32,849 bases of DNA from a virus: positions 1-32,849 of IMG/VR virus record IMGVR_UViG_3300041403_000826; one strand, 5' to 3'. A program made the translations under genes and the position numbers. Below, one piece after another: positions 2 to 15,721 of this stretch (position 1 is the first letter of the stretch; the number at the start of each line of letters is the position of its first letter). The notes under the pieces were generated by a model. The model was given only the letters and a program-made list of their open reading frames with translations, made no database searches and was not told where the DNA came from.

Positions 2-2986
2 AACCTGCTCTACAACACTGTCGATCTGGGGCATCTCTCTGAGAAATATGTGCGAATCATGCAGGATCCGCAGAGGCGAAAAGCTATCACGAACCTCTGG
101 TCACAGGAAGCAGATCCACAGGCGACCAGGGCAGCGTTTGATCGTGACCTGGTTCAATACCTCAACAACATGGCGAACCCGGATTCATCCGAGGGAGTTC
201 TTAAGGGGTTGGGTGACCCAGCTATCGCCAGGAAGAAAGCCAACGTACTTTCGGCCTTCCTGGGATTTAAAAAGAAAGACATACAGTTTCGAAACAACGC
301 ACAACGTCAGCGCATACTGCTCGAGCACCTCAATCCGGATCGCGCAGACAATCTGATTCGTGGTCGTCGTCTCGATGCGATCAATGACGTTTCCCCAGCT
401 CAGTTGGAGAAGATGCCGCTGAACAGGGATGCGTATCGGCGGATACAGGAGAACTTTGAACCTGGACAATCCTCTGATCTGGACTCACTGGTTATCAGTG
501 AATCCTCCGTCCGCAAAATGGATGTTGGGGATAAAGCGAAAAAACAAGTTGGCCTCTCCATAGCGGATTACCCAAAAAACCCTGTCAAGGACTCCGTTGC
601 TCTACCCGCTCGACTGGGTGTCGTTAATCAGAATATTGCTGGGGTGCCCAAAAGTTATAAGGAGGTTTTGAACATTGTGAAGCAGCAGGTCGATCGCATT
701 GCTGCTGTTCGCAAAGAAGACCCCGAATTCGCAAAGCGAAGTGCTGGGTTCTACGAGGACATGGCTCAGGTTGGAATGAATGTCGCCGAAAGCATCCGAC
801 CAGTAGGTCGAAGCCAATACGACACTGCTGACCTCATCATCCGATTGATTGCTTTAGGGTCTCCGCGATCATCTGTCAGCAGTAATGCGTCTAAATCAGT
901 TCGCAGCTTCATGTCGCCTTTCGGCACCCCCGCTGGATACAAGCTGGGAATGGGTACCGCTCAGAGGGGCGCACAGAAAACGGCAAACGACTGGCATAAC
1001 GGGAAGCACTTTGATGTGTTGTCAGAAGATGCAGTTGGTGCGGATGATAAAGTTCGCAACTTTTATTTGAATGCCATGGCAGACCTCATTGATATGGCTC
1101 GGGCCGATGGCGATCAGACAGAGGTCAAACGTCTGACGAAACGTGTCGCTCAGACGTTGGGACTGCATAAATCCGGGGAGATGACTCAGGAGATAGCTGA
1201 GAAAACCCAGACATTTCTCGATGGTCTCGCTACCGTGGACATGTGGGATATGGCATCCAAAGGCTATGCTCACCCGGCATACATAATCAAGCGAGGTAGG
1301 AAGTATGGAAGTGACAAACCATTCCAGTGGTCGGTTCCAGAGCAACGTGAGAGACGGCGCATCGACGATCCTCTTTTTGAAAAAGCCCTGAAAGAGTCTC
1401 CCATCATGGTGATGACGACCAAAGGCAAACAGAAGCCGCGCCCGGCGACTAGTATCATGGAGTTGGACTACCAGTATGCTCGCGCATTTCAGATCGATGG
1501 AAAAAGAGACTGGAACAAATTGTCATGGGAGGATCGCAAAGCTGAAGGGTTTGACCCTGATACTGAGTGGTCGTATTACAAGCGACCTGACGAGGGGGGG
1601 CTTTCCCCGGGTGGATCCGGACCCGTTTACGATGCCCAGCAAACGATCGACGGATTGATTGCCGATGAAATGAATTTGCAGGGTCTAGCTGGCTTTTACG
1701 GCAAAGAGAAGCTGAAGGCTAGGAACGCTCAAGAAATTTTGTGGGCAGTTGAAAAGCGTGACAACCCGCTGTTGTCGAATCGAAATTTGGAACTGTTTGG
1801 TGACAGACTCAACACGTTTACCGAAACCCTTAAAAAGATGTTTGCAGGGGAAGACTGGGCAACAAACATGGACGAGAAATCTGCCCGTGCAGTTGAACTG
1901 ATCAATGACACATTTAATTCAGTTGCCGACCAGGCATTACCGATTGAGGTAACGTCAATGGGAACGAGCGCAGAGGCGAAAGCGATTCAGTCGCTCGAGG
2001 CAGACCTGGGTGTTGAGGCGATGACAGAAGCTGTTGCGGACGGGTTAGCCGAAGAGCTTCAAGCCGCGATCGACGTTGCTGGGGGCAACGCACTCATCAA
2101 TGTTGTCAGGACTGGACAGGGTGGATTTTTAGAAAAAGGGTCAGCAAACTTTTCTTCAAACATCGTTATCGGATTGCGAGGAGATCCATCGCAAACAAAA
2201 ACGATCATGGACGCTCTTTCCCTCGCATGGGATCAGAAGAGCGGAAATATCATACGCCCGGCGACACTCGAGGAAAGAGCTGCTGGAACGGGTATGAACA
2301 CTGCCATTCAGTTTGACACACGCAAACTGGACGCAGCTCAAAAGAAGGCTTTTTATGAGGATCTTTCAGCACTAAAAGACGCCGACGGGAACACGTTCCT
2401 GACGGGGTTCACGGAAACTCCGGAAGGAATGTTTATCGGCGATCAGTTCTATGATGGAAACATGCAGGACGCTATTACCGAAAACCGTGACACCATTCTG
2501 TCCATCAGTGATAAGTATGATGTTCCTCAATACGACATCACAGATATTGTGATTGAGACCTTTGATCGCCCTGTTGATGAAGCAGGTCGAAATGCTGTAT
2601 TCGAGACAAACGAGACTCTCGCTCGAGCAGTATTTGCTTTAGGGAAGTCCAGAATTGATGCAGCCAGGGAAAAGGCATCAAAGAGGTCTCCAGGCAACGT
2701 GGACGAGAGGCTGGATGTTGTTGGAAGATCCAGACGGATAGCATCCGAGACTGAAGGGCCAATGCTGAAATCGCACAGAGACGACCTTTTGGTGAGACTG
2801 TCTGAACCCATCGATGTCATGGCGTTGGACGGTTTGCTAGAAGACAAAGAGGTTAAAGCAATAAAGAGCGACCTCAAGAAACTGGTAGCGGCGATTCCTT
2901 TGGCGAAGAAGGCAAAGAAAAAACCATTGAAAAAGCCCAAAAAGAAAGTAGCTTCGAAAGGAAATAAGAAAAAAGGTAGTCAATGA
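2..2986 (+). CDS. Large virion-associated / polyvalent phage protein, 5' end missing
   Basis: The frame is open from base 2, so the gene enters the window already in progress. A GTG at 50 could be a start but has no Shine-Dalgarno sequence, and the codons before it (NLLYNTVDLGHL) read like protein. About 994 residues are visible. Counting from the GTG, residues about 230-480 hold a pattern I associate with large polyvalent phage proteins: FYEDMA, then ALGSPRSSVSSN, KVRNFYLNAM, ATVDMWDMA and finally ELDYQYARAFQ. The rest is mostly helical and charged. The last 30 residues are a lysine-rich tail (KKAKKKPLKKPKKK) that could contact nucleic acid. It follows the tail and internal-protein genes if the genome is circular, so a virion protein ejected with DNA is the likeliest role. 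This is inference; no enzyme active site was identified. Confidence 0.7.
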   Translation, partial: NLLYNTVDLGHLSEKYVRIMQDPQRRKAITNLWSQEADPQATRAAFDRDLVQYLNNMANPDSSEGVLKGLGDPAIARKKANVLSAFLGFKKKDIQFRNNAQRQRILLEHLNPDRADNLIRGRRLDAINDVSPAQLEKMPLNRDAYRRIQENFEPGQSSDLDSLVISESSVRKMDVGDKAKKQVGLSIADYPKNPVKDSVALPARLGVVNQNIAGVPKSYKEVLNIVKQQVDRIAAVRKEDPEFAKRSAGFYEDMAQVGMNVAESIRPVGRSQYDTADLIIRLIALGSPRSSVSSNASKSVRSFMSPFGTPAGYKLGMGTAQRGAQKTANDWHNGKHFDVLSEDAVGADDKVRNFYLNAMADLIDMARADGDQTEVKRLTKRVAQTLGLHKSGEMTQEIAEKTQTFLDGLATVDMWDMASKGYAHPAYIIKRGRKYGSDKPFQWSVPEQRERRRIDDPLFEKALKESPIMVMTTKGKQKPRPATSIMELDYQYARAFQIDGKRDWNKLSWEDRKAEGFDPDTEWSYYKRPDEGGLSPGGSGPVYDAQQTIDGLIADEMNLQGLAGFYGKEKLKARNAQEILWAVEKRDNPLLSNRNLELFGDRLNTFTETLKKMFAGEDWATNMDEKSARAVELINDTFNSVADQALPIEVTSMGTSAEAKAIQSLEADLGVEAMTEAVADGLAEELQAAIDVAGGNALINVVRTGQGGFLEKGSANFSSNIVIGLRGDPSQTKTIMDALSLAWDQKSGNIIRPATLEERAAGTGMNTAIQFDTRKLDAAQKKAFYEDLSALKDADGNTFLTGFTETPEGMFIGDQFYDGNMQDAITENRDTILSISDKYDVPQYDITDIVIETFDRPVDEAGRNAVFETNETLARAVFALGKSRIDAAREKASKRSPGNVDERLDVVGRSRRIASETEGPMLKSHRDDLLVRLSEPIDVMALDGLLEDKEVKAIKSDLKKLVAAIPLAKKAKKKPLKKPKKKVASKGNKKKGSQ

Positions 2987-3186: not shown

Positions 3187-3225
3187 GGTTCATCGGTAAA
3201 AAGAAGCTTTGCCCAGCAGCAACTC

Positions 3226-3250
3226 AAGCACCCATTCGGGTGCTTTTTTT
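3226..3250 (+). terminator. Rho-independent terminator of the late operon
   Basis: An 8-bp perfect stem AAGCACCC / GGGTGCTT closes a 4-base loop and runs into seven T residues. It sits 40 bases after the stop of the last virion gene on the same strand. This is a textbook intrinsic terminator and marks the end of the late transcript. Confidence 0.9.
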
Positions 3251-3315
3251 ATTGAATCCCAGCTCTGACTGTGTCAGCTTTCTCCCGTAATAAGTATGCA
3301 ACGCCTATTACTTTC

Positions 3316-3360
3316 GAGCGTCTACCGTGGTTTTGCCGGACCCCAGACGCTCTTTTTTTT
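3316..3360 (+). terminator. Second intrinsic terminator upstream of attP
   Basis: A perfect 8-bp stem GAGCGTCT / AGACGCTC with a 21-base loop (which can form a further short CCG/CGG pairing) is followed by eight T residues. With the terminator at 3226 it makes a double stop between the late genes and the attP/integrase region, shielding the promoter at 3428 from readthrough. The large loop makes it less certain than the first one. Confidence 0.7.
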
Positions 3361-3427
3361 GCCCCGCTCAAACTAGTCATAATCATACTGATGCATTATC
3401 ACGCGTTTCCACCAAACCTCGCTGGAG

Positions 3428-3456
3428 TTGACTGTTCTATAGTTTCATAATAATAT
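3428..3456 (+). promoter_or_regulatory. Sigma70-type promoter pointing through attP to the integrase
   Basis: TTGACT at 3428-3433 (-35), a 17-base spacer, then TAATAT at 3451-3456 (-10). Both boxes are close to consensus and the spacing is ideal. Transcription would start near 3463, at the left arm of the inverted repeat, cross the attP core and reach the integrase start at 3583. The region is AT-rich and free of genes. No other good promoter was found between here and the integrase. After integration the promoter and the gene would be on opposite ends of the prophage. Confidence 0.7.
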
Positions 3457-3461
3457 ATTTT

Positions 3462-3566
3462 CTCAGTGAGAGGCAGAAAACCTTTATGTGACTACGGATC
3501 AGGAGGTTTGGGGTTCGACTCCCTACGGGTGTACCATTACTAATACACTATCTGCTTCTCGCTGAG
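3462..3566. repeat. 16-bp inverted repeat flanking the attP core
   Basis: Left arm CTCAGTGAGAGGCAGA (3462-3477), right arm TCTGCTTCTCGCTGAG (3551-3566). As DNA the arms are complementary at 14 of 16 positions; both exceptions become G-U pairs in RNA, so the transcript can form a continuous 16-bp stem. The repeat is centred at about 3514, inside the T-loop of the tRNA-like core. It may be a pair of integrase arm-binding sites, an RNA structure in the integrase leader, or both. Confidence 0.7.
3490..3536 (+). other. attP: attP core: 3' part of a tRNA-Arg(ACG) gene
   Basis: Read as tRNA: anticodon loop CTACGGA (3492-3498) with anticodon ACG, 3' anticodon stem TCAGG, variable region AGGTT, T-arm TGGGG-TTCGACT-CCCTA (3509-3525, five pairs counting one G-T), acceptor 3' strand CGGGTGT, A73 and CCA ending at 3536. 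The matching 5' half (acceptor, D-arm, full anticodon stem) is absent, so this is not a working tRNA gene. Tyrosine integrases commonly use tRNA 3' halves as attachment sites, and an integrase begins 46 bases downstream. The exact left border of the identity segment cannot be fixed without the host sequence. Confidence 0.8.
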
Positions 3567-3582
3567 TAAGAAAGACTTAGTT

Positions 3583-4641
3583 ATGAAGCTTGAGTGTAAA
3601 ATAAACCTATTTAAGCGCGGAAAAACCTACTTTGCGAAATCCACCGTTTTGGGTACAGTCGCGACGGTCTCCACGGGGGTGCGCTGCAAAAAAACGGCAA
3701 AAAAGATTGCCGAGCAAAAATTGACCCTCCTCCTCCAGCAGTCAGACTCCGTCTGGCGCGTGCGCTACCTGGTCGATGAGTTCTCCAAAAACGCCTTCCA
3801 CATTCGACGGGCGACCATCAGCGGGGTGCGTGGGTTCGTCGCCATGTTTTTGAAAACACTGGACCTATCGTGGGATCACCCCGTAGAGGAGGTGTTCACC
3901 AAAGATAACGCCAACGCATTCTTCCGTTTACGGCTCAATGGGGCAGCTCATTCGGCGAGAACAACGGCATCGATAACGGCGAACACAATCCTTCGATCAG
4001 TCAAACAGCTGTTCAGCGACCGGATGGTGGACACGTATTCCAGGTCACTGCCCGATTGCGTAGACGGTTTCAAAGCAGTCAAGCCACTGCCAGTCAGGCA
4101 GAAACAATACACCGTCTCGGATAAAAAGGATAAAATGCTCAAGGTCATCCAACAGTGCGAAGCACTCAAAGAGTCGGATCCGGGCGCATACCTGGCTTAT
4201 TGGCTCATGCTGCACTGCGGTCTGCGGCGCGGAGAAGCCGCCGCTGCTCGCTGGTCATGGATCACTCCTCACGGTCTCATGGTTCAGGAGGAGGAGGATT
4301 TCAGCACCAAAAGTGGCAGGTCGCGCCTTATCCCGCTTTCCAAAGACCAGATTGCCCACCTTGAGACGTTTAAGGAGGAGCGAGTCCACATACTGCCCGG
4401 CCCCATGACGGCACGTCTGAGAGACCATTCTGACGTTGTCGCCAAAATCATTCGTGCAGCAGGTTTCACCGGATCCAAATCAGTCCACGAACTTCGCAAA
4501 TACTTTGGAGCAAACGTAGCGACCCAGCTGGGGTTGTTTGCTGCTCAAAAATATCTGGGGCATCACTCCCCGGAGATCACCTCACGATACTACGCTGACT
4601 TGATCGATCAAAAACCCGTGGAGATTAAAATCCTGGCTTGA
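3583..4641 (+). CDS. int: Tyrosine-family site-specific integrase
   Basis: Catalyses integration of the circular phage DNA into the host tRNA gene and, with help, excision. The 352 residues have the usual order: an N-terminal DNA-binding part (about 1-60), a core-binding helical domain (about 55-160) and a catalytic domain (about 175-345). The catalytic set is visible: R215 in HCGLRRGE, K243 in TKSGRSRLIPL, H302 and R305 in VHELRK, H327 in YLGHHSPE and the nucleophile Y336 in TSRYYADL. The length is normal and nothing is missing. It lies directly downstream of the tRNA-like attP core, in the same direction, as expected. The ATG at 3583 has only a weak ribosome-binding site. Its promoter appears to be the one at 3428, on the far side of the attP core. 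Confidence 0.96.
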   Translation: MKLECKINLFKRGKTYFAKSTVLGTVATVSTGVRCKKTAKKIAEQKLTLLLQQSDSVWRVRYLVDEFSKNAFHIRRATISGVRGFVAMFLKTLDLSWDHPVEEVFTKDNANAFFRLRLNGAAHSARTTASITANTILRSVKQLFSDRMVDTYSRSLPDCVDGFKAVKPLPVRQKQYTVSDKKDKMLKVIQQCEALKESDPGAYLAYWLMLHCGLRRGEAAAARWSWITPHGLMVQEEEDFSTKSGRSRLIPLSKDQIAHLETFKEERVHILPGPMTARLRDHSDVVAKIIRAAGFTGSKSVHELRKYFGANVATQLGLFAAQKYLGHHSPEITSRYYADLIDQKPVEIKILA

Positions 4642-4682: not shown

Positions 4683-5144
4683 ATGAAACTACAGTTCAAC
4701 CACTCAACCATCACAACCGTCTGGCTCGAGGTGTGGGAAACACCTGCGCTCACCAGGCGATCCAAAACAAACCCCATGTTCAACACGCACCCACTCTCCG
4801 GTGCGATGCGAAACCGCCAGGCTTCCTTCCTGGCCGAACTACTCATGAACATTGCTATAGGAAACGGCGCACAGTTTGGCGCGATCTCGACTGTGGACGT
4901 GCCTCCGGATATTGAGGTCAAATGGTCTGCCAAAGCTCACAAGCTGATCGCATCCCCTAAAGAACTCAAACCCGGCTACAAATTCGTTCTGGCTACCGGG
5001 TTCCCAGAAATCGAGATCCTGGGCTGGGCTCACGCAGAGGAGATCACCCGGCCCATGCCAAATCACCCCAGAAACGCGCGATACATTGGCCGGGACAAAC
5101 TGCATGCGATCGAATCGTTGATAAAAAAATATGCGATCAAATAA
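4683..5144 (+). CDS. Nuclease-like phage protein of unknown function
   Basis: 153 residues from the ATG at 4683. A TTG at 4638 overlapping the int stop would add 15 residues, but those would be encoded by the hairpin at 4649-4681, so I prefer the ATG. The middle and end (RQASFLAELLMNIAIGN, then DIEVKWSA, then FVLATGFPEIEILGWAHAEE) resemble small phage proteins whose conserved pattern ends in a 'VLVTG-P-F-I-GW--G-EA' block. The spacing of E, D and E-V-K is what a PD-(D/E)XK nuclease fold would need, but the match is weak. It lies between integrase and the regulatory switch. Function is inferred only at the level of fold. Confidence 0.65.
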   Translation: MKLQFNHSTITTVWLEVWETPALTRRSKTNPMFNTHPLSGAMRNRQASFLAELLMNIAIGNGAQFGAISTVDVPPDIEVKWSAKAHKLIASPKELKPGYKFVLATGFPEIEILGWAHAEEITRPMPNHPRNARYIGRDKLHAIESLIKKYAIK

Positions 5145-5181: not shown

Positions 5182-5403
5182 ATGAACAGCATGAAGGTTC
5201 ACCCGTCACTCATCGCTATTCTGCGCCGAATTGCTCGAGAAGAGCACTCAACTCCGCAGCATATTCTGAGTCGGGTGCTTGATCAATCTGACGCTTTGCT
5301 TCCGCCAGAATCAACAACTCCAGAACCTGGGTGCGGGATCTGCGAGATTTCTTTGCCAGGCTCGAAAGAGCCTCCTTCGCGTTGGAATCAATCCAGGCAT
5401 TGA
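5182..5403 (+). CDS. Possible ribbon-helix-helix protein, antisense to the 5216-5458 gene
   Basis: The N-terminal 32 residues (MKVHPSLIAILRRIAREE then HSTPQHILSRVL) look like a short beta strand followed by two helices, the RHH plan. The frame is open upstream to 5131, overlapping the previous gene, but I favour ATG 5182 or 5191 because a purine-rich stretch precedes them. From about residue 45 the composition becomes unlike a protein (proline, cysteine and tryptophan rich). Most of the frame lies opposite the better-looking minus-strand gene. Either it is a shadow, or only its first half is real. Confidence 0.35.
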   Translation: MNSMKVHPSLIAILRRIAREEHSTPQHILSRVLDQSDALLPPESTTPEPGCGICEISLPGSKEPPSRWNQSRH

Positions 5404-5458
5404 AATTGGCTTTGTTTTTTGCTCTGACAGGTAAACTCACGCTCACACAATACATCAT
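5216..5458 (-). CDS. Ribbon-helix-helix candidate repressor (80 aa)
   Basis: The only convincing minus-strand gene in the window. Residues about 16-55 (KANFNAWIDSNAKEALSSLA, then KKSRRSRTQVLELLILAEAK) fit a strand-helix-helix RHH fold with a basic turn, followed by an acidic helical tail. It is transcribed away from the operator and promoter at 5501-5536, the place where a temperate phage keeps its repressor. This makes it the best candidate for the lysogeny repressor, though no classical CI-type HTH is present. The start could be either of two adjacent ATGs (5458 or 5455) and neither has a clear ribosome-binding site. Identity as RHH is by pattern only. Confidence 0.6.
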   Translation of the reverse strand: MMYCVSVSLPVRAKNKANFNAWIDSNAKEALSSLAKKSRRSRTQVLELLILAEAKRQIDQAPDSEYAAELSALLEQFGAE

Positions 5459-5500
5459 CGAACGAAAAGAAAAAGATAGAAAAATAATTTTAATTTTCTA

Positions 5501-5536
5501 TTGACCTAGGCGCACAATAGGCGCATATTGGGCGCA
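5501..5536 (+). promoter_or_regulatory. Early promoter overlapped by an 11-bp-phased operator
   Basis: TTGACC at 5501-5506 and CATATT at 5524-5529, 17 bases apart, form a plausible promoter for the gene at 5536. Three heptamers follow at exact 11-base steps: AGGCGCA (5508-5514), AGGCGCA (5519-5525) and GGGCGCA (5530-5536). They cover the spacer, the -10 box and the start point, so a bound protein would block transcription. An 11-bp step places each copy on the same face of the helix, as expected for a cooperatively binding RHH repressor. The predicted start is at or beside the ATG at 5536, so the mRNA may have no leader. Confidence 0.65.
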
Positions 5537-5763
5537 TGGAAAACACGGAAGCCAGAGAGGCAATAATCAACAACGTAGCGGCAGAGGCCGTTCAGGCATA
5601 TGAGTTCAATTGCTCATGGGGTCAGACTAAGCAGTCAATCGTTGAAGGACTCATAAACAACGGAATCTCGGTCAACAAGCCACTCGTCCTGCATGTCCTC
5701 AACCTGGCCAAAGTGAAATGGCAATCATTATCACAAAAGACTCGGGCTGAAATTTGCGCTTAA
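5536..5763 (+). CDS. First early gene, hypothetical (75 aa)
   Basis: I do not recognise this protein. It is 75 residues, predicted mostly helical (EAREAIINNVAAEAVQAYEF ... KQSIVEGLINNGISVNKPLV), with no membrane segment. The ATG at 5536 begins within the third operator heptamer, with no room for a ribosome-binding site if transcription starts at the predicted point. As the first gene under the operator, on the side opposite the candidate repressor, it sits where Cro-like or anti-repressor genes are found. A helical DNA-binding or regulatory role is therefore possible but only from position. An isolated fourth operator heptamer begins two bases after its stop. Confidence 0.6.
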   Translation: MENTEAREAIINNVAAEAVQAYEFNCSWGQTKQSIVEGLINNGISVNKPLVLHVLNLAKVKWQSLSQKTRAEICA

Positions 5764-5764
5764 T

Positions 5765-5771
5765 AGGCGCA
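5765..5771 (+). promoter_or_regulatory. Isolated fourth copy of the AGGCGCA operator heptamer
   Basis: AGGCGCA preceded by T, as in the first two copies of the upstream array, lies directly after the TAA at 5761-5763 and 13 bases before the ATG of the RHH gene at 5784. It could be a site for autoregulation of that gene. A seven-base word will also occur by chance in a window this size, so confidence is limited. Confidence 0.4.
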
Positions 5772-5783
5772 TTGTATGCATCT

Positions 5784-5918
5784 ATGAAAATCAAAAACAT
5801 TCAAATTCCAAATGCCCTACACCAGCAGATCAAACTGCTGGCGGTTCAGAAGGGCGTCACCATTCAGGCCTGGGTCGCTGACACGCTCCAGGCCGCAATC
5901 AACAGAAAACGAAAATGA
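5784..5918 (+). CDS. Arc-type ribbon-helix-helix DNA-binding protein (44 aa)
   Basis: A very short protein with a clear RHH plan: beta strand MKIKNIQIPN, helix ALHQQIKLLAVQKG, then helix VTIQAWVADTLQAAI and a basic tail NRKRK. Proteins such as Arc bind DNA as dimers by inserting the paired strands into the major groove. It follows an AGGCGCA heptamer and lies two genes from the operator array, so it probably regulates early genes or itself. Its stop overlaps the ATG of the next microprotein gene (ATGA). It was identified by translating the gap between longer genes. The fold is well supported; the target is inferred. Confidence 0.75.
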   Translation: MKIKNIQIPNALHQQIKLLAVQKGVTIQAWVADTLQAAINRKRK

Positions 5919-6002: not shown

Positions 6003-6503
6003 ATGACTACAGAAACAGCACCCACCCAGCCAGGCACCAGCGATCTCTTTTGCGCGATCGCGAAGGCGCAGCTGAAAATTTCAGCGGTAACTAAGGAGGG
6101 CAAAAACCCTCACTTCCGCAGCAACTACGTCACGCTCGATAGCATCCTGAACGGGCCCGTGAAAGTGTTCTCAGAACACGGGATCGCCATCATTCAGATG
6201 CCCAGCATCGTGGACGGCAAAATCAACATTCGCACCGTACTGGCTCACGCTGGGGGAGCAAACATCCAGAGTGACCTCTCCATGGTCTGCGATGTGTCAA
6301 ACCCACATAAAGTGGGATCCACCATCACTTATTTGAGACGCTTCTCGTTAGCGTCCATCCTCGGGATCGCGGGTGAGAACGACGATGACGGTAACGCCGC
6401 CGCCGGGGTGCAGCACAAACCAACTGCTACCACAAATCGGCGCCCCGTCACCACGGCTCGAGTGGTGCCAGGCAATAAACCCAAATTCAACCTGGATTTA
6501 TGA
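6003..6503 (+). CDS. erf: ERF-family single-strand annealing protein
   Basis: ERF proteins bind single-stranded DNA and anneal complementary strands in phage recombination and genome circularisation. The 166 residues carry the family pattern: FCAIAKAQLKI near the start, NPHFRSNYVTLDSILNGPVK, then a beta-rich stretch (IRTVLAHAGG), and the diagnostic block GSTITYLRRFSLASILGI followed by the acidic ENDDDG (about 105-130). The last 40 residues are low in order and basic, typical for the family. ATG 6003 is chosen because GGGGAGG lies upstream; a TTG at 5979 in frame is less likely. It is followed, with a 4-base overlap, by an exonuclease-type gene, the usual partner of annealing proteins. Confidence 0.9.
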   Translation: MTTETAPTQPGTSDLFCAIAKAQLKISAVTKEGKNPHFRSNYVTLDSILNGPVKVFSEHGIAIIQMPSIVDGKINIRTVLAHAGGANIQSDLSMVCDVSNPHKVGSTITYLRRFSLASILGIAGENDDDGNAAAGVQHKPTATTNRRPVTTARVVPGNKPKFNLDL

Positions 6504-8189: not shown

Positions 8190-8696
8190 ATGAAAATAAT
8201 TGGACTTTGCGGAAAAAAACGCTCGGGGAAATCATCCGCAGCCGAGCACCTACAACACATTATCGGTGATCGGTGCTACCGATTCTCGTTTGCCGACCAG
8301 ATCAAATCTGAGGTCGGGAAAATATTTGGAAAATACCGCGAGGACCGCAAAGAGACTCTGCGCCCGGTATACCAGAGTGTGGGGGAGGCAGCGAAACAGC
8401 TGTTCGGCACAACGGTCTGGGTAGACAAACTCGCCGACAAACTCAGTCGCCTCGAGGATCCGAGCGCCGTTGTTGTCATCGACGATCTGCGATTTCCCAT
8501 CGAGTCCGAGTGGGTTCGATCCATGGGCGGAGTCGTCTGGCGGATCCGCCGCCCGGCTACGGACTGCATTGAGGACTCGCATGTATCGGAGACCAGCGTC
8601 GATTTAATCACCCCAGACGAAATTGTGTTCAACGATTCAACACCATTAAATTTCTATGACCGCATCACTAAGCTATACAACTCAGCACGTCATTGA
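8190..8696 (+). CDS. Deoxynucleoside monophosphate kinase-like P-loop protein
   Basis: Predicted to phosphorylate dNMPs for phage DNA synthesis. The 168 residues have a P-loop near the N-terminus (IGLCGKKRSGKSS, 4-16), FSFADQIKSEV after it, and VVVIDDLRFPIE (94-105), which matches the 'DVRFPNE' motif of T4-gene-1-type kinases. RIRRP follows, probably the phosphate-binding arginine region. The length is shorter than T4 gp1 but normal for small phage versions. ATG 8190 is preferred over a GTG at 8163 because the latter lies within the hairpin at 8153-8175. Related adenylate-kinase-like P-loop proteins are the alternative. Confidence 0.8.
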   Translation: MKIIGLCGKKRSGKSSAAEHLQHIIGDRCYRFSFADQIKSEVGKIFGKYREDRKETLRPVYQSVGEAAKQLFGTTVWVDKLADKLSRLEDPSAVVVIDDLRFPIESEWVRSMGGVVWRIRRPATDCIEDSHVSETSVDLITPDEIVFNDSTPLNFYDRITKLYNSARH

Positions 8697-9036
8697 GCGC
8701 ATGGCGCAGAGCATAGGAGCCGAATTCCAGGTTGATACGGAAATGATGCTCAGCAGATCACGGATCGAACAAGCTGCAATGGCTCGGCAGGTTCTCATGG
8801 TCATGCTTTGCCGAAAAGGCATGAGTTTGCATCAGTGTGCGCGGGAATTGAACCGCGACCACGGAACCATTAACCACGCTCACAAAAGCGTTCAGAACAG
8901 GCGCGACACAGACAGGCACTTCGACGAGGTATTCCGCAGAATCGATGCCGAGTTTCGCGAGATGCCGTCAATACACCAACCCAAAGCCTGGGCGATCTCG
9001 TCGGTTGGAGACCTGGCTCAACCCTACTATTTTTAA
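8656..9036 (+). CDS. Orphan DnaA domain IV-like DNA-binding protein
   Basis: Residues about 22-82 match the C-terminal DNA-binding domain of DnaA: FQVDTEMMLSRSRIEQAAMA, RQVLMVMLCRKGMSLHQCA and the signature RELNRDHGTINHAHKSV (63-79). In DnaA this helix-turn-helix reads the DnaA box. The AAA+ ATPase part of DnaA is absent; the protein is only 126 residues. It lies between the dNMP kinase and the initiator/loader genes and overlaps the kinase gene by 41 bases. It may mark the phage origin, compete with host DnaA, or bring the helicase loader to the origin. I saw no perfect DnaA box (TTATNCACA) while reading the window. Confidence 0.85.
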   Translation: MTASLSYTTQHVIERMAQSIGAEFQVDTEMMLSRSRIEQAAMARQVLMVMLCRKGMSLHQCARELNRDHGTINHAHKSVQNRRDTDRHFDEVFRRIDAEFREMPSIHQPKAWAISSVGDLAQPYYF

Positions 9037-12985: not shown

Positions 12986-13173
12986 TACGCATCGTGGTCG
13001 AGGTGTCTGAGGACGCAAATGGCGTTGCCTTTCAGAAATACGTCCAGGCATGTGGGGCGACACCTGGTGAAGTTGAGGTAGGAGAGGGGGTTGATGCGAT
13101 CATTGACGAATATTTGGACACCCTCGAAGAGACTGACGATGTCATCGATGCTCAATCATTTGCGCGGAACTAG
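12982..13173 (+). CDS. Acidic hypothetical protein (63 aa)
   Basis: I do not recognise it. It begins with a strand (MIRIVVEVSEDANG) followed by helices, and is strongly acidic in the second half (DAIIDEYLDTLEETDDVID). Such small acidic proteins are frequent among DNA mimics and anti-host factors, but there is no specific evidence here. GAGG lies six bases before the ATG. It ends 10 bases before the glycosyltransferase gene. Confidence 0.55.
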   Translation: MIRIVVEVSEDANGVAFQKYVQACGATPGEVEVGEGVDAIIDEYLDTLEETDDVIDAQSFARN

Positions 13174-13183
13174 CGCGAGACCT

Positions 13184-14230
13184 ATGGAAAAACGGCTCAT
13201 CATACGTGGTCAGCTCGGGGATAACTCGAGCTACGATTATCACTCGCGCATCATCATCGATGGCATGCTGGAGCGTGGATGGGATCTCTGCGTGGTTCCA
13301 TACAATTCGGACGCATGGTCGCGTGTCCTCGATGAGCGGTATGAGCGGATCATTGCGCGTCAACCGAAATGGGACGCTCCTACCCTCATCATCCACCCAC
13401 CCAAACAAACACCCGACGATCCTGACCGGACGGTGTATTCGACCATGTGGGAGACCACTCGGATCCCCCAGGCGTGGATCCGAAACCTGAACAGGTGCCG
13501 TGCCGTGATTGTTCCATCAAACCCAAACATAATGACGTTCTCGGCTCAGGGGGTAACGTCTCCCATGCACTGTGTGCCGTTCGGGGTGGATACATCAGTG
13601 TTCTATTCCAGGTCATTTGTCAGGCGAAGCACGGTTGTGTTTGGGACATCAGGTATATCCCGTCATGGTTGGCCCCGCAAAGGGTTTGACGAGGTCGTCG
13701 ATGCATTCCTGCTGGCGTTCCCGGAAGGCAACGAAGACGTGGAACTTCGCATTAAATGCTACCCGAGGGACCCGATGCCGTCATGGACGGACCAGCGCAT
13801 CGTGCGCGATGAGGGGGAGTGGACAAAAACGGATTTGGCGGCGTGGTATCACTCCATCGACTGCTACGTGTCGATGAGCAAAGGTGAAGGTTTTGGTTTG
13901 ATGCCGCTCGAGGCTATGGCATGCGGAAGACCATGTGTGATCCCGGCCTGGTTTGGCCCGGAAGCGTATGCGAAGGAATACAACTCGTTCCTGGTGGATT
14001 ACAAGCTGGTCCCGGCTACGAATTATTACGAGGGACAGGGATTGTGGTGTGATCCATCGGTGGAAAGTGCGGCGAATATTATGCAGCAGATAGTAAAGCG
14101 TCCATTGATGATTACTGCAAAGGCGCGTCAAGCCCGGATCGATGCGTCACGATTTACCTACGCACGCATGGTGGATGGTTACATTGATGTCATCAATAAA
14201 TATTTTGGGAACAAACCGTATGGATATTAA
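13184..14230 (+). CDS. GT4-family (GT-B fold) glycosyltransferase
   Basis: 348 residues from ATG 13184; the frame is open further upstream but that part overlaps the previous gene in another frame. The N-terminal domain shows LIIRGQLGD and a donor-half of the GT-B fold; the linker region has VIVPSNPNIMTFSAQGV and VPFGVDTSVF, typical of GT4 enzymes; the C-terminal domain carries the retaining-enzyme E-x7-E motif in KGEGFGLMPLEAMACGRP (213-230; E215 and E223). It should transfer a nucleotide-sugar residue; the sugar and acceptor are unknown. It forms an operon with a methyltransferase (overlap 11 bases) and a GT10-like enzyme, so a glycan or glycoprotein is probably built or altered. Confidence 0.9.
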   Translation: MEKRLIIRGQLGDNSSYDYHSRIIIDGMLERGWDLCVVPYNSDAWSRVLDERYERIIARQPKWDAPTLIIHPPKQTPDDPDRTVYSTMWETTRIPQAWIRNLNRCRAVIVPSNPNIMTFSAQGVTSPMHCVPFGVDTSVFYSRSFVRRSTVVFGTSGISRHGWPRKGFDEVVDAFLLAFPEGNEDVELRIKCYPRDPMPSWTDQRIVRDEGEWTKTDLAAWYHSIDCYVSMSKGEGFGLMPLEAMACGRPCVIPAWFGPEAYAKEYNSFLVDYKLVPATNYYEGQGLWCDPSVESAANIMQQIVKRPLMITAKARQARIDASRFTYARMVDGYIDVINKYFGNKPYGY

Positions 14231-14879
14231 TATGCCAACATTCCGTGAGGGGACGTGGGATTCTGGGATCTGGGATGAGGCGAGATCTTACCCTGTCCAC
14301 AATTTTGAAGGAAAGGTCATTGTTGACCTGGGCGCTCACATAGGAGGGTTTACGACTAAAGCTGCTGAGTCAGGTGCGAAAATGGTCTACGCATACGAGG
14401 CATGGGCTGAGAACTTTGCGGTTCTTAAAAAGAATGTCGAGGGATATGAAAATGTGAAAATCAACAACCTCGCCGTCTGGAAATCAGATAGTGATGTTAA
14501 AAGCGTCTTTTTCCATGATGATTTTGACACAACGAACACCGGAGGTGGGGGTGTGTTTGAGGGTAGTGGATTAGGGGTGGAGGTGGAGACCATAGGTCTA
14601 GACGATGTGCTAACGGACACCGGACCTGTTGACATTGTAAAGATCGACATTGAATCGGGAGAATATCCGGTGATCTACACATCACGTCTGATCAGCAATG
14701 TTCGAGCGTTTATTGGGGAGTATCACCACGGCATGCTTGACCATAAAGCCGAAATTGACGGGGTGACATATCCATACAACATCTTCGCCTTAAAAACATA
14801 TCTGGAGCTAGTCGGATTCTGTGTTGCCATTGATCCAAAAAGTGATGCGTTGGGAAATTTTGCTGCGTTCAGGTTATGA
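14220..14879 (+). CDS. FkbM-family SAM-dependent methyltransferase
   Basis: 219 residues from ATG 14220 inside the end of the glycosyltransferase gene. SAM-binding motif I is VIVDLGAHIGGFT (33-45), with the ribose-binding acid at E60 (YAYEAW). The FkbM hallmark is VDIVKIDIESGEYPVI (137-152). FkbM enzymes methylate hydroxyl groups, often on sugars of surface glycans or natural products. Between the GT4 and GT10 genes, O-methylation of a sugar added by the cassette is the obvious role. The stop overlaps the next start by four bases. The frame could be read from 14142, but the extra residues lie within the previous gene and look non-protein. Confidence 0.9.
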   Translation: MDINMPTFREGTWDSGIWDEARSYPVHNFEGKVIVDLGAHIGGFTTKAAESGAKMVYAYEAWAENFAVLKKNVEGYENVKINNLAVWKSDSDVKSVFFHDDFDTTNTGGGGVFEGSGLGVEVETIGLDDVLTDTGPVDIVKIDIESGEYPVIYTSRLISNVRAFIGEYHHGMLDHKAEIDGVTYPYNIFALKTYLELVGFCVAIDPKSDALGNFAAFRL

Positions 14880-15721
14880 GGGTTTGTTTTGTCGATACAA
14901 ATTACGAGTGGCATGATCGTGACAACGTGATCTTTCAAAGCCTCATTAGACTGAGAGAGAACGTCACGATCTGCAACAGGTCACCGGATATTTTGATAAC
15001 AAAAGCTTTTGGCAACGCAAAGACGTGGGAAATGTTCGATTGCGCCAAATGGCTTTATACTATTGAGTCTCCCTGCCCGAAGCACCCGAAGTTGGATTTT
15101 AATTTTACCCACGATGCCGACTCAGACACGAACGCTTACTTTCCCTGCTACCATTCCTGGATTAATTACTACAATGAAGTAGACAGGCACTACCCCGAAT
15201 ACTTGATTCTACCCAAATATCTCGACAGTGCCATCCCTCTCAAACAGGCGCGGAGGAACACTTTTTCTGCATTTTGGACGGCGAACGGTCCGTTGAGATC
15301 ATCGGTCACATGTAGCCTGGAGTCAATGGGGTTTGCCGTCGAAAAGTATGGGGCGTTTTTCGGTAAAGCATCTACAACAAACAAGTCAAAGTGGCTAAAT
15401 ATGCTTGAGACTAAGTATAATCTCGCATTCGAGAACCGGCTCTACCCCGGGTATCACACAGAAAAAATAGTGGAAGCCAAAGCCGCAGGGACAATCCCCA
15501 TATACTATGGTCACACTGACATGAAAAACCTGAACCAGGATGCGTGCCTTAATTTGGCGAACTACGAGGATCACGATGAAAGGATGAATGCGATCCTGGA
15601 CCTGGTGAACGACGAATCTAAGCAGCGACAAATGATTGAGACTCCGCTTTTTCATCAGACACCAACTGCTGAAACGGTGATGAAACAAGTGGAGAGGGGT
15701 CTTCAACGGGTATCACTGTAA
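14876..15721 (+). CDS. GT10 fucosyltransferase-like enzyme
   Basis: Residues 180-212 hold the GT10 donor-binding signature: KYNLAFENRLYPGYHTEKIV followed by EAKAAGTIPIYYG, matching the alpha-1,3/4-fucosyltransferase pattern 'F-LAFENS---GYVTEKI--A---G-VPIYYG'. The N-terminal half (MRVCFVDTNYEW ...) would form the acceptor domain. 281 residues is within the range of bacterial versions. GT10 enzymes use GDP-fucose, but substrate cannot be assigned from sequence. The gene ends exactly at the start of the large terminase (TAATG). No GDP-sugar synthesis genes are in the window, so the donor must come from the host. Confidence 0.88.
   Translation: MRVCFVDTNYEWHDRDNVIFQSLIRLRENVTICNRSPDILITKAFGNAKTWEMFDCAKWLYTIESPCPKHPKLDFNFTHDADSDTNAYFPCYHSWINYYNEVDRHYPEYLILPKYLDSAIPLKQARRNTFSAFWTANGPLRSSVTCSLESMGFAVEKYGAFFGKASTTNKSKWLNMLETKYNLAFENRLYPGYHTEKIVEAKAAGTIPIYYGHTDMKNLNQDACLNLANYEDHDERMNAILDLVNDESKQRQMIETPLFHQTPTAETVMKQVERGLQRVSL

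Follow-up and report, generated by a model that had tools for sequence, protein, structure and literature searches.

A candidate ribbon-helix-helix repressor and its putative operators in phages with a tRNA-Arg(ACG) attachment site

In the window, that is, the whole 32,849-bp linear virus record analyzed here, three short direct repeats at 11-bp steps overlie the predicted early promoter, and a minus-strand gene for an 80-aa ribbon-helix-helix (RHH) protein, RHH80, faces the early operon. Judging from sequence comparison and a structure model, this is probably, though with much room for doubt, the region that controls lysogeny and the early genes in a temperate phage integrating at tRNA-Arg(ACG), with RHH80 as the prophage repressor. 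The preliminary description had proposed a switch built from two RHH proteins, one repressing the early genes and the other opposing or modulating it. The repressor part is supported by comparison of synteny and operator-like arrays across five lineages, whereas the opponent part is not.

The octamer array and the predicted early promoter

The features of the region are as follows.

5216–5458, minus strand: RHH80, ribbon-helix-helix gene, putative repressor, 80 aa (Pfam and PHROGs, fold, pN/pS, orthologues in all sister lineages)
5476–5501, no strand assigned: AT-rich inverted repeat ATAGAAAAATAA..TTAATTTTCTAT in the divergent spacer beside the −35 box, unchanged in the sister contigs
5501–5529, plus strand: sigma-70-like early promoter TTGACC-17-CATATT (9/12 consensus; about 1.5 such sites per 2 kb expected by chance)
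5507–5514, plus strand: candidate operator octamer 1, TAGGCGCA (repeat search and sister comparison)
5518–5525, plus strand: candidate operator octamer 2, TAGGCGCA (repeat search and sister comparison)
5529–5536, plus strand: candidate operator octamer 3, TGGGCGCA (repeat search and sister comparison)
5536–5763, plus strand: 75-aa orphan, first early gene (pN/pS 0.14; all-helical model)
5764–5771, plus strand: candidate operator octamer 4, TAGGCGCA, 12 bp before the RHH44 start
5784–5918, plus strand: RHH44, 44-aa RHH-like protein (weak but consistent RHH/Arc/HicB matches; pN/pS 0.19–0.33)
6003–6503, plus strand: ERF single-strand annealing protein (ERF 8.7e-20), the next gene downstream of RHH44

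Octamers 1, 2, and 3 follow each other at steps of exactly 11 and 11 bp and would therefore lie on the same face of the helix, an arrangement of several short sites on one helix face. The first two bases of the −10 box fall within octamer 2, and octamer 3 runs from the last base of that box to the A of the ATG at 5536, where the first early gene begins. The pair TTGACC-17-CATATT is the only sigma-70-like hexamer pair over the octamers and is a promoter by consensus match only. Since the −10 box ends 6 bases before this ATG, the gene at 5536 is probably leaderless. No Shine-Dalgarno sequence was found at the genes starting at 5536, 5784, and 5458, whereas several other genes of the phage have strong ones; a strong promoter was not found for RHH80 either.

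The repeats are unlikely to have arisen by chance, as judged from shuffles of the window and of the spacer. The window has a single case of one hexamer repeated three times at a fixed step of 8–16 bp, and 2 of 100 dinucleotide shuffles have such a triple too; if another copy is required no more than 300 bp away, 1 of 100 does. When the 82-bp spacer is shuffled instead, the triple beats 300 of 300 shuffles. A search of both strands of the window and of the loci spanning the two sister contigs gave no other exact TAGGCGCA, and among viral contigs the exact triple pattern is matched in sister contigs only. In genome contigs the pattern was met once, in a Rhodobacteraceae MAG (L035 489–518), where the same letters recur in three tandem repeats of 11 bp; no phage genes were found nearby, and this copy is apparently unrelated.

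Close sisters of the window were located through ERF and integrase searches and are ~94–96% identical to it across the switch region. They comprise IMGVR_UViG_3300023116_000091 (L003, 43.9 kb), of which L002 is an identical copy in this region, and IMGVR_UViG_3300025769_000790 (L004). In L004 all four octamers are kept and all read perfect TAGGCGCA, including octamer 3, despite a replaced gene between them and changed flanks. The octamers are kept rather than their surroundings: between the window and L004, 0 of 23 bases in the core GGCGCA are changed versus 8 of 28 neighboring bases (Fisher p 0.006). The preliminary description had reported three heptamers at exact 11-bp steps over the −10 box and a fourth downstream. 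Both the array (5507–5536) and the downstream copy (5764–5771) are confirmed, but the conserved unit is the octamer. A degenerate inverted half-site at 5755–5762 is missing from L004 and therefore probably dispensable.

The replaced gene in L004 is the first early gene; the 75-aa gene is swapped for an unrelated 55-aa gene (L004 2250–2417), and the two are alternative cassettes between two candidate operator blocks. The model of the 75-aa protein gave no convincing structural match. One apparent relative, in L038, was discarded as spurious, since the match sits inside a 757-aa ORF.

The position of the AT-rich inverted repeat should also be noted. The stretch 5459–5506 shows 0 differences in 48 bases between the window and L004, and the repeat in it may serve as a second operator or as an UP-like element.

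RHH80 and its orthologues in the phage family

RHH80 matches Pfam RHH_1 at 8.5e-4, 0.9 bits below the curated cut-off, and does not match PF03869 (Arc). Its AlphaFold model (pLDDT 82.5) adopts the RHH fold. The closest structures by superposition are all RHH proteins, namely the Rv0298 antitoxin, PutA, CopASO, CopG, and Arc, and the model fits the RHH domain of PutA at 1.0–1.2 Å over 44–46 residues. The Foldseek E-values are all poor, and the assignment was made through superposition of the RHH core; with structural Z values below 6, RHH80 is assigned to the fold only. By predicted fold, RHH80 thus falls within the ribbon-helix-helix superfamily, and the earlier suggestion of a minus-strand RHH candidate is borne out by this fold and by the near-cut-off RHH_1 match. 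The pN/pS value is 0.27–0.47 in the RHH80 frame versus 0.79–1.45 in an overlapping plus-strand ORF (5182–5403), though these rest on few substitutions. The plus-strand ORF, with its weaker coding signal and no family match, was rejected as a gene; it overlaps the tail of RHH80, and its first 40 residues look RHH-like.

Upstream of RHH80, the window carries the following features.

3489–3538, plus strand: attP core, the 3′ half of tRNA-Arg(ACG) from the anticodon loop to CCA, 44 bp before the integrase gene
3583–4641, plus strand: tyrosine integrase (int), 352 aa (Phage_integrase 5e-11; 51–56% identical in sister lineages)
4683–5144, plus strand: p153, conserved gene between int and the putative repressor gene (36–55% identical and in the same place in sister lineages)

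The attP core lies in a 396-bp noncoding gap (3187–3582) before int. The T-arm and acceptor part (3509–3536) is identical in the sisters, and the same tRNA stretch is found within the complete tRNA-Arg(acg) genes of L045/L046 and precedes int in the sister lineages. With an intact-looking integrase and a tRNA-Arg attP, the phage is judged to be temperate. The gap also carries two hairpins with a T run after each.

The wider family was found by probing viral contigs with the half-tRNA, and an alignment search with DUF2800 added L054–L061. The half-tRNA attP is an effective probe for this phage family. Four divergent sister lineages were recognized: L044/L048, L056/L057/L061, L058, and L060. In L044 and L048, int is 51% and p153 40% identical to those of the window, and the ERF protein of L044 is 44–45% identical. 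Where contigs cover both ends, the gene order is attP, int, p153, the minus-strand RHH gene, the divergent spacer, a small plus-strand gene, ERF, and the DUF2800 nuclease; some contigs begin or stop inside it. Among isolated phages, no relatives of the integrase, RHH80, RHH44, or the 75-aa protein were found.

A minus-strand RHH gene faces the early operon in five lineages including that of the window. The sister orthologues are ~60 aa long and match the PHROG "Arc-like repressor" at 4.7e-6 to 3.1e-4; the L044 orthologue reaches 0.13 against the Arc family. A profile built from the sister RHH proteins alone has RHH80 as its sole match in the window (E 0.0023), and the two sides align in hhalign at E 1e-5 (probability 82%).

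Candidate operators are also seen in the sister lineages. In L060 the early start is closely preceded by a triple, TATCAACA/TAACAACA/TATCAACA, whose steps are 11/11 bp and whose letters differ from those in the window; its 22 of 24 identities were reached by 0 of 300 shuffles. Immediately upstream of the ATG, L057 and L058 have the block GATGTTAAAC..ATGTTAAC.A..GTAAACA in common, with the rest of the spacer much less alike. The arrays of L057, L058, and L044 are weak singly, their scores being reached by 17, 23, and 48 of 300 shuffles, respectively. In L044/L048, TTAACA/TTGACACC elements are kept in conserved stretches, and a significant triple was not found in the spacer. Taken over L060, L057/L058, and L044/L048, direct repeats spaced by about one turn seem to be characteristic of the early start in this family, with letters that vary by lineage. 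The conserved RHH gene in the repressor place, together with the independent triple in L060, suggests that the minus-strand RHH protein is the likely repressor of the family.

The predicted ribbons of these proteins should be compared with the sites. In the four sister lineages a near-identical ribbon, K.M.GLW, occurs beside GTTAAC/TTAACA-type sites, whereas in the window lineage the ribbon is NKANFNAWI and the sites are GC-rich, both unlike the sisters. This covariation, drawn from few lineages with the sites compared by eye, argues for the minus-strand RHH protein as the one that binds the octamers.

No CI-type repressor was found that could take this role. In Pfam scans and family searches over most window genes and the unannotated gaps, HTH_3 appeared only in the putative small terminase, and these scans also returned a DnaA-C-type protein and replication proteins. 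Across eight records, some of them fragments, there were no matches to Peptidase_S24 or Phage_CI_repr and none to HTH_3 beyond frames of ~200–240 aa, in profile searches that are by nature blind to an unknown repressor family. The end and start of the window are joined in a sister contig (G001) through ~1.86 kb missing from the window. This stretch lies wholly within one giant ORF, over 1,400 aa long, so no CI-type gene is hidden there. The absence of a CI-like HTH gene, as first described, is thus supported, and the missing part holds no standard repressor as far as the sister genome tells.

The giant ORF corresponds to L032 6759–11099 in a sister contig and spans the window ends; its part inside the window (50–2986) has no Pfam match. 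The DnaA-C-type protein (8656–9036) is a stand-alone C-terminal domain (domain IV) in the early region. In L057/L058, a small gene behind the first early gene is DnaA-C-like by eye, with no Pfam match.

RHH44 and other readings of the repeats

The early operon encodes a further RHH-like protein, RHH44. Its matches are phrog_9151 (4.8e-5), phrog_5333 (9e-4), YlcI_YnfO_N (0.001), Antitox_RHH (0.003), and HicB (0.0046), none of which is above a curated cut-off. The preliminary description had listed a 44-residue Arc-type RHH gene after the promoter and the fourth heptamer. These weak but consistent matches suggest that the 44-aa gene is RHH-like; the gene directly behind the promoter is the 75-aa orphan. 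The first early genes of the four sister lineages have no homology to RHH44 (hhalign 0.06, probability <1%) and no RHH family match, suggesting that a second RHH protein is limited to the lineage of the window. A role for it as the opponent is therefore not supported.

RHH44 could itself be the octamer binder, acting as an early Arc-like autorepressor (a Cro/Arc role) that damps the early operon, with RHH80 bound elsewhere, for instance at 5476–5501. We regard this as unlikely but deserving serious weight. RHH44 looks to be essentially a bare RHH domain, the fourth octamer lies 12 bp before its gene, and the sites persist in L004, where RHH44 is 95% identical; the inverted repeat that would be left to RHH80 is unchanged among the sisters. 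The fourth site fits autoregulation by RHH44 as well and in this respect counts against RHH80. RHH80 is also 94% identical in L004, so the close sisters do not discriminate between the two proteins. The divergent lineages are more telling: no counterpart of RHH44 is detectable in them, yet the array of L060 exists without it. The comparison thus favors the minus-strand RHH protein as the putative binder, and RHH44 may act as a Cro/Arc-like damper through the fourth site.

The repeats might instead be sites for an excisionase/regulator of the 186 Apl or P2 Cox type, or arm-type integrase sites. The phage has an integrase, and Apl acts at direct repeats of six bp that are spaced by one turn and occur both at pR-pL and at attP (PMC7498355). 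Phage 186 thus resembles the window in that its lysis-lysogeny region contains direct repeats with a spacing of one helix turn. It differs in that its sites are also at attP, whereas here attP (3489–3538) is ~2 kb away, the exact octamer is absent between 3187 and 3582, and the repeats in that gap are different ones. This explanation is improbable.

Somewhat less credible still is a toxin-antitoxin pair, with the 75-aa protein as the toxin and RHH44 as the antitoxin autoregulating the operon. The best matches of RHH44 do include HicB-like and other antitoxin families, but its 44 residues leave little room for a toxin-binding tail. In L004, moreover, the 75-aa gene is replaced while RHH44 is retained, which is unexpected of a cognate pair.

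The least credible reading is that the octamers are boundaries of cassette exchange by homologous recombination, or a relic of tandem duplication, with no regulatory role: they do lie near both ends of the gene that is replaced in L004, and 11-bp tandem repeats with similar letters arise by chance elsewhere (L035), but the core is kept while spacers and flanks change, L060 has a different array at the same position, and the octamers overlap the −10 box and the start codon.

The proposed switch and comparable systems

With RHH80 as the putative repressor, we infer a switch in which RHH80 dimers would bind the three TAGGCGCA-type sites cooperatively, side by side. The complex would extend over the −10 box and the predicted transcription start as far as the start codon of the putatively leaderless early transcript. 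RNA polymerase would be blocked, and the early operon, comprising the 75-aa orphan, RHH44, ERF, the nuclease, and the replication genes, would be off. Because the divergent spacer is only 77 bp long, the complex would also touch the promoter of RHH80 and set the RHH80 level. At the fourth site, either RHH80 or RHH44 would damp expression from just before RHH44, and the gene between the two operator blocks would be an exchangeable cassette.

Extension of this scheme to the whole tRNA-Arg(ACG) phage family is tentative. An RHH protein of 60–80 aa might be the only lysogeny repressor there, with operators made of direct repeats at one-turn spacing fused to the start codon of a leaderless early gene and an exchangeable cassette between two operator copies; the repeat letters might have diverged together with the ribbon, giving different immunity types.

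The functionally nearest precedent, likened by description, is F55 of SSV1, a 55-aa RHH protein whose repression of early genes maintains lysogeny and which binds tandem copies of an 11-nt sequence at early promoters and at its own promoter (PMC9608457, PMC5569661). F55 belongs to an archaeal fusellovirus, is reported to be unique to SSV1, and has another motif, ATAGATAGAGT, whereas here the gene is conserved next to int in a bacterial tailed-phage family.

The immI region of P22 contains mnt and arc, whose products regulate the antirepressor gene ant (PMC2629481). These are likewise phage RHH repressors; the sister proteins match the PHROG Arc-like family, and the RHH80 model superposes on Arc. 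However, Mnt and Arc act on ant in a prophage that also has the c2 repressor, whereas here the RHH gene lies opposite the early operon, with no CI-type repressor found.

The layout itself is that of lambdoid CI/Cro regions, with a minus-strand regulator facing a plus-strand early operon, sites in between, and int nearby. It differs from them in that no HTH/S24 repressor was found, the repeats are direct rather than palindromic, and the first gene is no known Cro. RelB dimers bind 6-bp repeats on one DNA face with a spacing essential for cooperativity (PMC2812701), but that system is toxin-antitoxin autoregulation and its hexads lie on both strands. In SP-beta, YosL, a predicted Arc-type RHH protein, is linked to prophage lysis-lysogeny control (PMC10516654). 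Contrary to the role proposed for RHH80, YosL is present upon induction and may act in favor of the lytic cycle, and the master repressor, MrpR, is another protein. No RHH repressor precedent was found in a paper on phiLM21-like prophages.

A role of RHH proteins in lysogeny is therefore already known from P22 and SSV1. What would be new, if the proposal is right, is that such a protein serves as the main repressor, in the position of CI, throughout a family of bacterial phages. In many environmental temperate phages an integrase is present but no CI-type repressor can be recognized. RHH genes beside int would then be a repressor class to look for. The cross-lineage set, in which ribbons and repeat letters differ and the layout is the same, would make RHH recognition and heteroimmunity testable with very small proteins.

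Elsewhere in the window, glycosyltransferase group 1, FkbM methyltransferase, and GT10 fucosyltransferase-like genes lie just before the large terminase gene (13091–15721), a cluster with a possible function in surface-glycan modification.
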